From positions 1-42,965 of IMG/VR virus record IMGVR_UViG_3300035181_000792: a DNA stretch of 42,965 bases. One strand, given 5' to 3'. Shown here piece after piece: positions 39,927-42,965 of this stretch. The translations under genes were made by a program, and so were the position numbers. The notes beneath the pieces are model-generated. The model saw only the letters and a list, made by a program, of their open reading frames with translations, ran no database searches and was not told the DNA's origin. This stretch comes from a virus. Position 1 is the first letter of the stretch; the number at the start of each line of letters is the position of its first letter.

Positions 39927-40322
39927 ATGACAATCAAGCTCATGGACGAAAAGCCCAACTACCAGGAGTTCCTGATGGGCTATCTGGAATGTGCCGCGTG
40001 GTGTGGCATCAGCGAAGACGATCCCAACAAGAACAAGTGCAGAGACGGACACCCCTCAGTGTACGACTTCACGGTTCACGAAATCTTCCGCGCCGAAAAG
40101 GAGTGCCGAGACTTTGTGGACTCCAATATACAGGATCTTCGCGGACTCGACATGAAGCGGTGCGGGTACGACTTTTGGTTCACGCGCAACGGTCACGGAA
40201 CAGGCTTCTGGGACCGCGGGCTTGGTGAAGTCGGCGACCGTCTCACTGAGGCAGCAGAAGGCTGCGGCACGATGTACGTCTACGTTTCCCGCCGTGGAAA
40301 ACTTCACATGAAAGTGGGGTAG
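39927..40322 (+). CDS. Conserved phage protein (RNGHGTGFWDRG family)
   Basis: The 131-aa protein contains FWFTRNGHGTGFWDRGLGEV (about 83-102). This motif recurs in small early proteins of unrelated tailed phages and is probably metal- or ligand-binding, although no function is known. The N terminus is acidic with two Cys (YLECAAWCGISEDDP), followed by a helix (EIFRAEKECRDFVDSN). The C terminus is a short beta-hairpin with YVYVSRRGKLHMKV. The ATG has GAGGAGG upstream. Confidence 0.7.
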   Translation: MTIKLMDEKPNYQEFLMGYLECAAWCGISEDDPNKNKCRDGHPSVYDFTVHEIFRAEKECRDFVDSNIQDLRGLDMKRCGYDFWFTRNGHGTGFWDRGLGEVGDRLTEAAEGCGTMYVYVSRRGKLHMKVG

Positions 40323-40374
40323 CGTGCAGACCAGGAAACACAGTTTGTCTGAATCCGTGGGACAAGGAGGCGAG

Positions 40375-40587
40375 ATGCACAAGTCCAGCCACGAAGTCGG
40401 CAAAGTGAAGTTTCGATCCAAGCCCAAGGACGTGGTAGTGCTCCTGCCCGTTAGGATCTGGCATCAGGTCGAGATCTTAGAGGACGGGACCGAGCGCCAC
40501 TCAATCGAGCATCCTTTGCACGGCGTTTTCGTTGGTGAGACGTGGACAGAAGCACTACGCAACATGAAGCAGGCGCTACAGCCGTAG
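40375..40587 (+). CDS. Hypothetical 70-aa protein
   Basis: The product starts MHKSSHEVGKVKF at ATG 40375, with AAGGAGG four bases upstream. An upstream GTG at 40324 (extending by 17 residues) lacks a site. It has a beta-rich middle (VVLLPVRIWHQVEILEDG) and a helical end (GETWTEALRNMKQAL). The strand-strand-helix pattern recalls small HicB-like folds, but I do not claim that family. Immediately after the stop lies a GCCTAAC element (40589-40627). Confidence 0.5.
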   Translation: MHKSSHEVGKVKFRSKPKDVVVLLPVRIWHQVEILEDGTERHSIEHPLHGVFVGETWTEALRNMKQALQP

Positions 40588-40588
40588 C

Positions 40589-40627
40589 GCCTAACGACAC
40601 AAGCTCACCAGCCCATCTGGAGGAGAC
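40589..40627 (+). repeat. GCCYAAC intergenic element (a)
   Basis: It starts GCCTAAC one base after the stop of the 70-aa gene. ACACAAGCTCACCAGCCC follows, up to the ribosome-binding site of the next gene. It aligns with the element at 41693-41728 over GCCTAAC ... CAAGCT-ACC-GCCC. It resembles the left half of an integron attC site (R'' core RYYYAAC), but no right half is visible. Confidence 0.5.
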
Positions 40628-40735
40628 ATGAACCACCACACTAGTCCGATATGGGCAGCGATCGGAGCAATCCTGTTCTTTGGATTGTTCTGGACCGTGC
40701 TCGATCTAATCACCGGGAAATTCAAGCGCAAGTGA
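40628..40735 (+). CDS. 35-aa single-span membrane peptide
   Basis: The short frame encodes MNHHTSPIWAAIGAILFF, continuing GLFWTVLDLITG and a basic KFKRK end. GGAGGAG stands one base before ATG. It is a typical one-helix micropeptide with positive-inside polarity after the helix. Such peptides in phages can be exclusion factors, pinholins or modulators of a host membrane enzyme. The strong ribosome-binding site and hydrophobic content support expression. The exact role is unknown. Confidence 0.6.
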   Translation: MNHHTSPIWAAIGAILFFGLFWTVLDLITGKFKRK

Positions 40736-40756
40736 TACCTGACGGGGACACAATCT

Positions 40757-41074
40757 ATGGACGCACACATGATGCCTTTCACAGCAGGACCGAAGACGGT
40801 TGGGGCGTGTTCCGAGTTGAGCGACGATGTGGGCGAGGAACTGAAGCTCTACGCATGGCAGCCCAAAGGGCACGGCGAACTTTCATGGTTTGTCGTCGCC
40901 GAGACAGAGGCCGAGGCCAAAGATGCGGTTGATCGAGAGATTGCACGTAGGCTGTCGCTTCCTTGGGACGAACCAGATCACATTGGAGATTACGATGTGG
41001 AGGGATGGGGCTCTGACTATTACACGCTGACGGTTGCGAAACGTGGACAGCCAGTGAGCAACGACAACGAGTAG
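40757..41074 (+). CDS. Hypothetical protein with leader shared with 41742-42059
   Basis: The 105-aa product starts MDAHMMPFTAGPKTVGACSE. The gene at 41742 starts MDEHTMPFTEVPKTVGAGSE, and the DNA is correspondingly similar for about 70 bases. The remainder differs (ELKLYAWQPKGHGELSWFVV ... GSDYYTLTVAKRG). The ribosome-binding site is weak (GGGGAC). The shared leader suggests recombination at a conserved 5' segment. Function unknown. The stop is followed by a CGCCCGACCG element variant. Confidence 0.55.
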   Translation: MDAHMMPFTAGPKTVGACSELSDDVGEELKLYAWQPKGHGELSWFVVAETEAEAKDAVDREIARRLSLPWDEPDHIGDYDVEGWGSDYYTLTVAKRGQPVSNDNE

Positions 41075-41103
41075 CGCCCGACCGCTACCAACAGGAGAAC
41101 GAC

Positions 41104-41412
41104 ATGACAGATAGAGAACTGCTGGAAGCCGCCGCGAAGGCTGCGGGGATTGACGGAGAGTACCGAACCGAGCGCTTGTGCGTTGACGGCGACTGGACGA
41201 ACGTGACCGCGATTTTTATGACTGACGGCGCGGGCTGGTGGTGGAACTCCCTCGAAGACGACGGAGCCGCCTTGCGTCTGGCGGTGAGGTTGGGTCTGCT
41301 GTTTGATCCGGATGCGTCGCGCCTGTACAGCGAAGAACTTGCGGACGGCAGGGGGCCGGAAGAAGCAGCACGCCGCGCCTTCACCCGCGCAGCCGCCGCG
41401 CTTGCGGAGTGA
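41104..41412 (+). CDS. Small phage protein of the 'WN-L-DDG-ALRLAV' type
   Basis: The 102-aa product starts MTDRELLEAAAKAAGI. It contains GWWWNSLEDDGAALRLAVRLGL and ends with an Ala-rich helical tail. The pattern is common in small early proteins of many phages that infect Gram-negative bacteria (N-terminal ELLExAAKAAG helix, then WNPLxDDGxALRLAV), but their activity is unknown. The ATG has AGGAG six bases upstream. Confidence 0.65.
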   Translation: MTDRELLEAAAKAAGIDGEYRTERLCVDGDWTNVTAIFMTDGAGWWWNSLEDDGAALRLAVRLGLLFDPDASRLYSEELADGRGPEEAARRAFTRAAAALAE

Positions 41413-41506
41413 GGGCGTTGGTGCTTCCCAACAACAGAGTGCAGCGCCCAGCGGGGTCCTCTGAAACGAGCAGTTGAGCGGATGGAAAAACAACAAAGGA
41501 GAAGCG

Positions 41507-41698
41507 ATGGAAACCGAAAGCCAGACCATTTTGCGAAGGGCCAAGGAAGCCCTTGATTACTACCGAGAAAGAGAGAAGCAAGCAATCGAGACGCTGGCTA
41601 GTGCAAGAGAAGATGTTCGGAAAGCGCGAGAGAAATATGAGCAGCTTTTCTTGGCGGAAGAAATGCGAGAAGCGGAACGGCGTAGAAATCGCGCCTAA
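41507..41698 (+). CDS. Small coiled-coil protein
   Basis: The 63-aa protein starts METESQTILRRAKEAL at ATG 41507, with AAGGAG five bases upstream. An earlier ATG at 41474 lacks a good site. It is one long charged helix with heptads through DVRKAREKYEQLFLAEEM and an Arg-rich end. Its stop TAA lies within the next GCCTAAC element, which suggests that the element arrived at or formed the gene end. Confidence 0.55.
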   Translation: METESQTILRRAKEALDYYREREKQAIETLASAREDVRKAREKYEQLFLAEEMREAERRRNRA

Positions 41699-41728
41699 CT
41701 TTCAAGCTGACCGGCCCCGCTGTGGGCC
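41693..41728 (+). repeat. GCCYAAC intergenic element (e), contains a stop codon
   Basis: GCCTAAC (41693-41699) supplies the TAA stop of the coiled-coil gene. TTTCAAGCTGACCGG follows, then a small hairpin (GGCCC, loop CGCTGT, GGGCC). The left part matches 40589-40627. It has the order R''-like GCCTAAC, a CAAGC spacer word and a hairpin, as in the left half of an attC site. Confidence 0.5.
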
Positions 41729-41741
41729 AAGGAGGAACGAC

Positions 41742-42059
41742 ATGGACGAACACACTATGCCTTTCACAGAAGTGCCAAAGACGGTTGGGGCGGGGTCTGA
41801 GTCGAGCCGCAATGACCAGCTTTTGAGGCTGGCGCGCCTCGGTCTCTGGTGCCTCAACGCATCCTACAGGGATTCCATCGGAGACGTTGACGGTGACGGT
41901 ATCAAGGACAAGGCACTTGAGCTGGGGATTCTTGTCACTCACGAAGTATCTGAGCCCTGCGGTGAGCACTGTGCCTGCGCGGAGTACGGGTTCCCGGCTA
42001 CTTGTCTCAGAGAGGCGGAATGGCTGCACCCGTTTGAAATCCAGTTTGGAATGCGGTGA
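41742..42059 (+). CDS. Hypothetical protein with the MDEHTMPFT leader
   Basis: The 105-aa product starts MDEHTMPFTEVPKTVGAGSE, nearly the same leader as at 40757. It then has a DNDQLL-like helix (NDQLLRLARLGLWCLNASY), an acidic VDGDGIKDKALELG turn, and Cys in CGEHCACAEYG and ATCLREAEW. Four Cys might bind a metal or form a redox pair. ATG 41742 has AAGGAGG upstream. The longer frame starting at 41553 crosses the coiled-coil gene and is rejected. Confidence 0.55.
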   Translation: MDEHTMPFTEVPKTVGAGSESSRNDQLLRLARLGLWCLNASYRDSIGDVDGDGIKDKALELGILVTHEVSEPCGEHCACAEYGFPATCLREAEWLHPFEIQFGMR

Positions 42060-42061
42060 GA

Positions 42062-42131
42062 GCCCAACGACCGGCAGCTCGATTGAAACCAAGCGCCGGA
42101 TGCGGGGGTCCGGTTGACCGCCCGGTTGGGC
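42062..42131 (+). repeat. Complete attC-like element (f)
   Basis: A 70-bp imperfect palindrome begins GCCCAAC (42062-42068) and ends GTTGGGC (42125-42131). These match the RYYYAAC and GTTRRRY core sites of integron attC. CCGG next to each end can pair with a bulge (cGa) between, and further CCGG/CGCC pairs lie inside. It lies right after the stop at 42059 and before the next ribosome-binding site. No integron integrase is seen in the window, so recombination activity is not shown. Confidence 0.55.
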
Positions 42132-42146
42132 GCAGGAGCAGATAGA

Positions 42147-42473
42147 ATGTGTGAATTCGGGTTCTATGAAGGGCTCCCAGGCGTAGCGGGTAGGATCACG
42201 GGCACGTTTGCCGACAGCGTAGCGTCGGTAATGCGCAAACTAAGGACCTACCGGATCGTATCCTGCAATGGCTCAATGGGCAGCGTCTCGGTGTGGATCG
42301 ACGACGAAGGCGGCCTATGGTGTGAGTTCTACCAATACGGGCGGACCATGGCTAGCGCCCGGCCTACCAGCAATGCCGAGGTGAGGAAGTGGCTCGAAGA
42401 GTGGCTTCCGAAAACACGGCTAACAGCCCAACGACCGGCTAACCGGCACTGCCGGAGAAAGGAACCGAGATGA
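42147..42473 (+). CDS. Hypothetical 108-aa protein whose end reads through an element
   Basis: The product begins MCEFGFYEGLPGVAG, at ATG 42147 with AGGAG eight bases upstream. A TTG at 42114 lies inside the element upstream. The middle is beta-rich with SVASVMRKLRTYRIVSCNGS and SVSVWIDDEGGLWCEFYQYG, then a helix with NAEVRKWLEEWL. The last 18 residues (LTAQRPANRHCRRKEPR) are the translation of the GCCCAAC element at 42426-42460. The real domain therefore probably ends near residue 90, and the tail may be acquired. Confidence 0.55.
   Translation: MCEFGFYEGLPGVAGRITGTFADSVASVMRKLRTYRIVSCNGSMGSVSVWIDDEGGLWCEFYQYGRTMASARPTSNAEVRKWLEEWLPKTRLTAQRPANRHCRRKEPR
42426..42460 (+). repeat. GCCYAAC element (g), inside the end of a CDS
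   Basis: GCCCAACGACCGGC is identical to the start of the element at 42062. It continues TAACCGGCACTGCCGGAG, giving overlapping CCGGC pairs. It encodes the basic C-terminal tail of the 42147-42473 product and precedes the ribosome-binding site of the next gene. Confidence 0.5.
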
Positions 42474-42769
42474 CGAACCAGAACGCCGAGGCACGGTCCG
42501 AGTCGAGCGCATGGCTTGGCGCATGGTTGCCGATTGACACAGCCCCACGAGACGGCACGGAGGTGCTGGTGTTGTCGTACCACGCGGGCGTGGCCGTAGT
42601 GCGTCCCGCGTGGTACAGGAGCCGCAAGGAATGGGAAGACTTCGGGCAGTACTTTTTTGGCTGGGACCGCCTGGAAGAGTGGGAGGGCTGGTGGTCCTAC
42701 GCCAGCAACGGTGTGGGCCAGGAAAAGCTGGAGGGGGCGCAACTTCCGACGCACTGGTATCCCATGTAG
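42470..42769 (+). CDS. DUF551-like small phage protein
   Basis: The 99-aa product has the DUF551 pattern: AWLPIDTAPRDGTEVLVLSY near the N terminus, a WYRSRKEWEDF helix, and PTHWYPM at the end. The domain occurs in many phages and mobile elements and is probably a small beta-rich fold. Function unknown. The N-terminal part includes ARSESSAWLGA, similar to the SESS part of its neighbours' leaders. The ATG overlaps the preceding stop, with GGAGAAAGGA upstream. Confidence 0.75.
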   Translation: MTNQNAEARSESSAWLGAWLPIDTAPRDGTEVLVLSYHAGVAVVRPAWYRSRKEWEDFGQYFFGWDRLEEWEGWWSYASNGVGQEKLEGAQLPTHWYPM

Positions 42770-42821: not shown

Positions 42822-42965
42822 TTGATCGCGGCTTTGTATGTTGAGAAAAACGGATGCTACTTCGGCCTGCCGGGAGTGGACCCGTGGGACATCGAACGGG
42901 ACGCCAGGCGATACCAGGGGCCTTACCCGGTTGTTGCACACCCACCCTGTGAGCGATGGGGACGG
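42822..42965 (+). CDS. Partial conserved phage protein at the window end
   Basis: The first 48 residues follow TTG 42822, with GAGGAGG four bases upstream. They read (Met)-IAALYVEKNGCYFGLPG, then VDPWDIERDARRYQGPYPVVA and HPPCERWGR. This is the start of a widespread phage family with the pattern CYFGLxxVDPWDxxRDARxYxGPxPVVAHPPCxRWG. The PPC element recalls cytosine methyltransferases, but activity is unproven. The gene is cut by the window edge, so length and stop are unknown. Confidence 0.75.
   Translation, partial: MIAALYVEKNGCYFGLPGVDPWDIERDARRYQGPYPVVAHPPCERWGR

Follow-up and report, generated by a model that had tools for sequence, protein, structure and literature searches.

Apparent translation starts in the loops of attC sites in a partly decayed cassette array of a tailed phage

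INTRODUCTION

How is a small gene translated when it lies between integron attC sites in a phage genome? The question is raised by a run of short open reading frames (ORFs) in IMG/VR virus record IMGVR_UViG_3300035181_000792, all 42,965 bp of which are referred to here as the window. The record is that of a tailed phage, with genes for terminase, portal, head protease, tape measure and a J-type tail fibre; the run lies 3' of the primase gene, in the early region. A longer contig, L002 (63,115 bp), represents the same phage at 99.99% identity. A sequence-only reading of the window had noticed elements resembling attC sites among these ORFs and suggested a cassette array or the remnants of one. 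If so, the locus touches two open questions: how distal cassettes far from an integron promoter are expressed, and how phages trade small accessory genes so rapidly.

Two known systems bear on these questions. Clusters of attC sites lacking integron integrases (CALINs), with small attC-flanked genes, occur in phages, and the integrase IntI1 recombined five of six tested phage attC sites with attI1 (Qi et al. 2023, PMC9892861). The text of that study mentions neither start codons nor translation in attC. ORF-11 of attI1 and short ORFs in attC aid translation by termination and re-initiation, the stop of ORF-11 lying in the sequence GTTAG (PMC8876359). We found no description in the openly licensed literature of an attC that supplies the start codon of the cassette gene itself.

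Here we report that the starts of two cassette ORFs in the window lie within attC sites. We consider it very probable that positions 40589-42520 are a short, partly decayed CALIN whose attC sites would provide the start for the next cassette and would have been recombined by a host integron integrase (IntI). A wider claim is likely, though we hold it less firmly: that in a widespread group of phages the attC hairpin would act as a portable translation start, from which start-less cassettes would be expressed once host IntI inserts them in phase. The window is a decayed member of the known CALIN kind, and its start-carrying attC sites look like a new variant.

RESULTS

Start signals within attC loops

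The ORFs beginning at 41742 and 42470 have both their ribosome-binding site and their ATG inside attC, in the loops of the sites that we call C and E. These features and the intervening site D are as follows.

41693..41807, + strand: attC site C; R'' at 41693-41699, L'' from 41706, L' ending at 41807, R' lost; variable terminal structure with Shine-Dalgarno (SD) sequence AGGAGG (41730-41735) and ATG (41742)
41742..42059, + strand: cassette ORF; leader MDEHTMPFTEVPKTVGAGSESS from site C, body from about residue 23
42062..42131, + strand: attC site D; R'' GCCCAAC and R' GTTGGGC intact, L' present, L'' arm deleted
42426..42520, + strand: attC site E, the best preserved; R'' GCCCAAC, L'' and L', with R' mutated from GTTGGGC to GCTTGGC; variable terminal structure with SD AAGGA (42459-42463) and ATG (42470)
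42470..42769, + strand: cassette ORF; leader MTNQNAEARSESSAWLG from site E, DUF551-like body from 42521

When translated, the L'-R' half of such a site reads AGSESSxxLG. Both ORF 41742 and ORF 42470 have this peptide at their N-termini, as does ORF 40757 in altered form; the first 73 nt of ORF 40757 are 81% identical to the start of ORF 41742. Because the 5' half of its attC (site B, below) is gone, only the start and leader of ORF 40757 can be assigned to an attC. The sequence-only reading had credited the cassette genes with ribosome-binding sites of their own. That is true of ORF 42147, which has its own SD, but not of ORFs 41742 and 42470; the reading had overlooked both the start signals in the loops and 42426-42520 as a whole site.

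The arrangement recurs in other phages. A pattern for the L'-R' half, as found in contig L027, returned 119 stretches of bacterial genomes and 38 viral stretches. SD plus ATG occurs in the loops of 33 of 75 distinct viral attC sites, compared with a mean of 3.7 and a maximum of 10 in 300 shuffles; these counts are not independent trials, because the sampling was pattern-based, the contigs may be akin and the shuffles were first-order Markov samples. On the bottom strand none of the 75 sites carries the pair. Start-carrying sites as a feature of bacterial Geothrix attC were considered and rejected, since SD plus ATG is found in 35 of 189 bacterial sites against a shuffled mean of 30.

The frame set by the loop is read through the recombination site. 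In the 39 sites where SD plus ATG sits in one usable frame, that frame stays open past R' for at least 40 codons in 30, and the other usable frame is open to this extent in 13; the attC frame crosses R' free of stops into the cassette ORF, unlike the coupling known from ORF-11. Two phases occur, TTR-GGC, with the leader ending ...LSxGLG, and RGG, with the leader ending ...VERGVR. Bodies of 40 residues or longer are present in 35 of the ORFs: in 31 of these no other start with an SD falls within 40 codons, and in 18 the first 30 codons lack an in-frame ATG. At the other end, of the 19 viral cases with a complete ORF, 15 have their stop codon within or adjacent to the following R''. Recognizable domains begin close to the joint: in L159 a Lar restriction-alleviation domain (Pfam, 1.9e-11) spans residues 16-64, with the junction at 18, and in L144 the match to an HNH family (2.2e-35) runs from residue 18.

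Viral attC sites without a recognized SD plus ATG also occur (L027, L170, L197, L199, L211, L214, L216, L223, L234, L243, L245, L249, L252, L254, L256, L262, L273, L282 and L286). In many of these sites the RGG frame is open for 50-177 codons past R'. Some of the loops have GTG, or ATG with a weak SD (for example, GGCAGCAGATGAAGCATGAAC); others are followed by conventional starts after R'. Starts within attC may be commoner than our counts suggest.

Identity of the attC sites

The words on which the sequence-only reading had drawn are all present: GCCTAAC at 40589 and 41693, GCCCAAC at 42062 and 42426, and GTTGGGC at 42125, with GACCGGC following in three of the four elements. Such heptamers prove nothing alone, because their frequency is near chance (14 in the window against 11.4 expected). 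We therefore scored the window with a block model and a position-specific scoring matrix (PSSM) trained on bacterial attC sites only. Over the whole window and both strands, the three best R''-L'' halves in the block model start at 41693, 42426 and 40589 (28.2, 21.8 and 21.2 bits), where 0.03 halves of at least 20 bits are expected. The three best L'-R' halves, at 42495, 40809 and 42106, all fall inside the cassette region, and in the 63-kb contig L002 attC halves are confined to this one cluster. By PSSM, 42426-42520 scores 46.8; the maximum of 60 shuffled windows was 16.2.

A covariance model, our own and not that of IntegronFinder, was built from 47 attC sites of phages and Acidobacteriota, excluding the window. 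Its stated structure is a 7-bp R stem and an L stem with three extrahelical bases, and stem covariation in the 47-site alignment is 0.253, compared with 0.095 when shuffled and at most 0.085 when slid. The model matches the window at three places only: 42426-42520 (45.8 bits, E 1.7e-9), 41706-41807 (28.7 bits, E 2.9e-5) and 42062-42131 (17.3 bits, E 0.021). Across 16 control phages sharing the primase, 262 kb in all, it has no match, and in the 63-kb contig L002 its matches are confined to this cluster. The resemblance to attC noticed in the sequence-only reading is borne out by the matches in the window, but weaker variants proposed after 41074 and near 41440 receive no support from the model.

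How well do the individual sites preserve the attC structure? The sites at 42426 and 41706 align to the model stem; that at 42062 has lost L''. Complementary R'' (RYYYAAC) and R' (GTTRRRY) boxes are both intact only at 42062-42131, one box being mutated or lost in the others. Site D, which had been likened to a short attC, thus has its R'' and R'. As a standard hairpin it was rejected: its L'' arm has been lost, as comparison with L119:3646-3732 shows, and because of this it folds as a three-way junction. Sites E and C, folded alone, do no better than their own shuffles, so their membership rests on the covariance model and on homology. Site E aligns end to end and nearly identically with a bacterial site, L133:4617-4716, both loops containing AAGGA and ATG, and the L133 site folds canonically. 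In L311, a close relative, R' still reads GTTGGGC where site E has GCTTGGC.

We conclude that the elements are integron attC sites. The alternatives that the sequence-only reading had itself named, terminators and conserved coding tails, do not hold; the elements match the integron attC sites of Geothrix and other Holophagaceae. The elements had also been placed at or just after stop codons, which is correct for 40589, 41693 and 42062; the one at 42426 lies inside ORF 42147-42473. An Rfam match to sR53 in the region was dismissed as chance (18 bits against a gathering score of 49). As DNA queries, the two start-carrying sites had no match among 50,697 phage records. In TJE1, a published phage with attC, a strict home-made rule found no comparable site, and our comparison excludes published phage attC sites.

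Exchange of leaders and bodies at R'

If the start belongs to the attC, leader and body should have separate histories. Relatives of ORF 41742 cover one part of it or the other: in L021 and L022 the match is limited to residues 17-105, with a different N-terminus before the body, and in L026 to residues 1-19, the leader there preceding a different body. Gene exchange across the elements in related phages, the absence of which would have counted against attC in the sequence-only reading, is thus seen. In L026 and L027 small genes are separated by textbook attC sites, such as GCCTAAC-GCCTGAG-TTCAGCGG-loop-CCGCTGGAA-TGAATG-GTTAGCC. The body of ORF 41742 also has a homologue in a cassette of L169 (44% identity, 9e-20); neither protein has a match in cultured phages.

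The same independence is found among 59 leader/body proteins. Leader type MTNQNAPEAGSESSARLG and its variants, which include that of ORF 42470, precede eight different bodies and leader type MRDDAAGPDGSALSEGLG precedes nine; conversely, seven body types occur with two or three leader types each. In L045 and L133, two contigs of one metagenome-assembled genome (MAG), a single body stands behind two different leaders. L311 has a related attC leader in front of a homologue of the ORF 42470 body. Outside cassettes, homologues of this body have their own Met exactly at the junction: M-TWLPIETAPKDG in L312, MSK-WQPIESAPKDG in CUB19 gp79 and MMTKKPE-WNPIETAPKDG in L313. The joints between leader and body fall at R', where integron integrases cut. 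At the level of sequence, joints in this position show the signature of cassette exchange, with the start belonging to the attC of the upstream cassette.

In L021 (3825-4276) a GTTGAGT box links the body of ORF 41742, in frame, to a gene lying upstream (MKARCCPRCL...), which in L027 forms an ORF by itself (from 4280).

Integrase and host

Most of the bacterial stretches returned by the L'-R' pattern belong to Geothrix or other Holophagaceae, whose contigs hold several sites each. IntI above the curated cut-off (460-472 bits) is encoded in six of eight genomes searched, all six of them Geothrix. The attC type of the window is that of the chromosomal integrons of Geothrix and Holophagaceae, and many uncultivated phages have it too. 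In Geothrix genomes, at loci such as L087, L107 and L147, attC sites of 124 bp form long arrays spread over several scaffolds; a search of the open literature did not bring up Geothrix together with attC. Geothrix-type arrays also occur in two contigs, L122 and L126, from a MAG that bears the label Puia sp. (Bacteroidota); these are probably mis-binned Holophagaceae DNA.

An integrase encoded by the phages themselves was considered and rejected: no IntI exceeds the cut-off in 40 viral contigs, among them 33 beyond the window, L002 and the nearest relatives. Weak matches (23-42 bits) at five places in four viral contigs look like generic tyrosine recombinases. With IntI absent from the window and its near relatives, the locus is not a complete integron of intI and attI. 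It has the make-up of a CALIN, with three covariance-model matches within 0.9 kb, short ORFs between them and no integrase, although the sites are decayed.

Remaining features of the array

The other sites and ORFs of the cassette region are listed here.

40589..40611, + strand: attC site A, 5' half only; R'' GCCTAAC, spacer and L'' AGCTCACCAG; 21.2 bits, the third-best 5' half
40628..40735, + strand: ORF of 35 amino acids, hydrophobic peptide, SD GGAGGAG upstream
40757..41074, + strand: cassette ORF with attC-derived N-terminus MDAHMMPFTAGPKTVGACSELSDDVG, a leader common to L026
40809..40834, + strand: attC site B, 3' half; L' and degenerate R' TGTGGGC; 14.7 bits, the second-best 3' half
41104..41412, + strand: ORF of 102 amino acids, phrog_5086 family (PHROGs, 1.1e-19)
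41507..41698, + strand: ORF of 63 amino acids; its stop TAA lies within the R'' box of site C (GCC TAA C)
42147..42473, + strand: conventional cassette ORF of 108 amino acids; own SD (AGGAG) and ATG 3' of the R' of site D

Site A directly follows the stop of ORF 40324-40587; its 3' half is not recognized and the covariance model has no match there. The N-terminus MNHHTSPIWAAIG of ORF 40628..40735 may be a degenerate translated 3' half of an attC, a weak resemblance. Site B is translated within ORF 40757, and its 5' half is unrecognizable. The C-terminus of ORF 42147-42473 extends into site E, so that its stop overlaps the start of ORF 42470.

DISCUSSION

From the homology and structure of the attC sites, the in-frame leaders and the shuffling at R', we infer the following sequence of events. 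A host integrase of the Geothrix type, acting in trans on the folded bottom strand, perhaps while the phage replicates, would insert or remove cassettes at the R' box. The hairpin loop of the single strand holds the SD and start codon. Ribosomes would initiate in the exposed attC loop, and their elongation would open the L'-R' arm. Translation would then cross L' and R' in fixed frame, passing from the attC that ends the upstream cassette to the ORF of the following one, which would need no start of its own and would usually stop within its own R'' box. Because the attC would supply the start and the next ORF needs none, any cassette inserted in phase would be translated immediately, its N-terminus being a leader of about 16-26 residues encoded in the attC of its upstream neighbor.

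Could the starts have reached the loops in some other way? The array might be an ordinary decayed one, with real attC sites, in which the start of the next gene has drifted into attC as a by-product of a compact genome. The decay of the window sites, the conventional starts after R' in some cassettes (ORF 42147; L027 at 3157) and the lack of enrichment in bacterial sites would all suit such drift. It would not lead one to expect, however, that the leader moves with the attC rather than with the body (eight and nine bodies per leader type, bodies with two or three leaders), that non-cassette homologues have their own Met at the junction, or that SD plus ATG is nine-fold over shuffles in viral sites; we regard drift as improbable. 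Translational coupling of the ORF-11 type, in which an ORF in attC would terminate at R' or close to it and the cassette gene would be translated by re-initiation, has a precedent in class 1 integrons (PMC8876359). Here, by contrast, the attC frame avoids the TAG of GTTAG and passes R', remaining open for at least 40 codons in 30 of 39 sites; 31 of 35 ORFs offer no other SD start within 40 codons; and it is in this frame, from the junction on, that the Lar and HNH domains are encoded. This makes coupling very unlikely.

The most radical alternative is that the elements are not attC at all but a conserved phage linker, or start-associated repeats serving homologous recombination between modules. 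Phage module boundaries of such a kind exist, and ORFs 40757 and 41742 do share 73 nt at their starts. Yet this explanation is hardly credible: it is already contradicted by the covariance-model matches, with a covarying attC stem and extrahelical bases, and by the identical class of site in Geothrix arrays with IntI, and the leader/body joints lie at R'.

Several observations nevertheless weigh against attC-borne starts recombined by a host integrase. No IntI (TIGR02249) or PF00589 protein is encoded in the window, the 63-kb contig or the contigs of the nearest relatives. Terminase matches across 77 Holophagaceae genomes were found in only four, at 30-41% identity, and do not establish the host. 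The patterns used to collect viral attC sites required the L'-R' half to be intact, the contigs may be related to each other, and the shuffles used for comparison were first-order Markov samples. Finally, every attC site in the window is damaged, the defects including a lost R', a lost L'' and a mutated R', and for this reason present-day mobility of the array appears unlikely. Of the options first offered, remnants of a cassette array proved the right one. The array is probably frozen, given this damage, with its attC-borne starts still in use.

How does the array with attC-borne starts compare with known systems? Like the phage CALINs already described (PMC9892861), it is an integrase-free cluster of attC sites in a phage; those CALINs come from other hosts, whereas the window sites are decayed and of a Holophagaceae/phage type. 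The sedentary chromosomal integrons of Geothrix and Holophagaceae (Acidobacteriota) have the same attC boxes and L arms, and the class of start-carrying leader is common to sites of the window type and to L133, L144, L138 and L073. They differ from the phage in their dominant 124-bp attC, which is not enriched for SD plus ATG, and in having IntI, which the phage lacks. As with ORF-11 and short attC ORFs (PMC8876359), a recombination site carries translation signals that boost expression of the downstream cassette, but in the window type the ORF would be read through R' as the N-terminus of the cassette protein instead of stopping in GTTAG. The in-frame fusion gcuF1-blaOXA-28 (PMC8876359) likewise has a chimeric N-terminus created at a cassette junction; it is a single, harmful accident, whereas the window type is recurrent, with fixed phases and leaders that belong to attC.

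If our explanation is correct, the phages would benefit by shuffling accessory genes much as exons are shuffled, without an integron promoter, attI or an integrase of their own. The recombination site would itself solve the problem of expression by carrying the ribosome-binding site and ATG and setting the frame across the crossover point. This would account for families of phage proteins that share an N-terminal peptide (...AGSESSARLG or ...GPDGSALSEGLG) despite unrelated bodies, N-termini that gene callers and homology searches can misread. The short peptide signature would offer a way to find phage genes carried on cassettes, Lar and other counter-restriction genes among them.

The surroundings of the array yielded some minor observations. 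When the cassette region was compared with a phage DNA database, the sole match was a conserved gene near 40160-40250; the elements had none. The gene at 39927-40322, which encodes a protein of the phrog_1915 family, matches genes in large phages of Erwinia, Caulobacter, Serratia, Klebsiella and Acinetobacter, with an identity of about 80% over 66-87 nt. At the other end, the last ORF of the window (42822-42965, truncated; MIAALYVEKNGCYFGLP...) has a homologue between attC sites in L026 (3347-3955), and by this homology the cassette region may reach beyond the last recognizable attC. Further downstream, at 14586-15398 of L002, an ORF encodes a very long stretch of Glu/Asp repeats (GAGGACGAGGAC...) and a tail rich in Ala, Lys and Pro.

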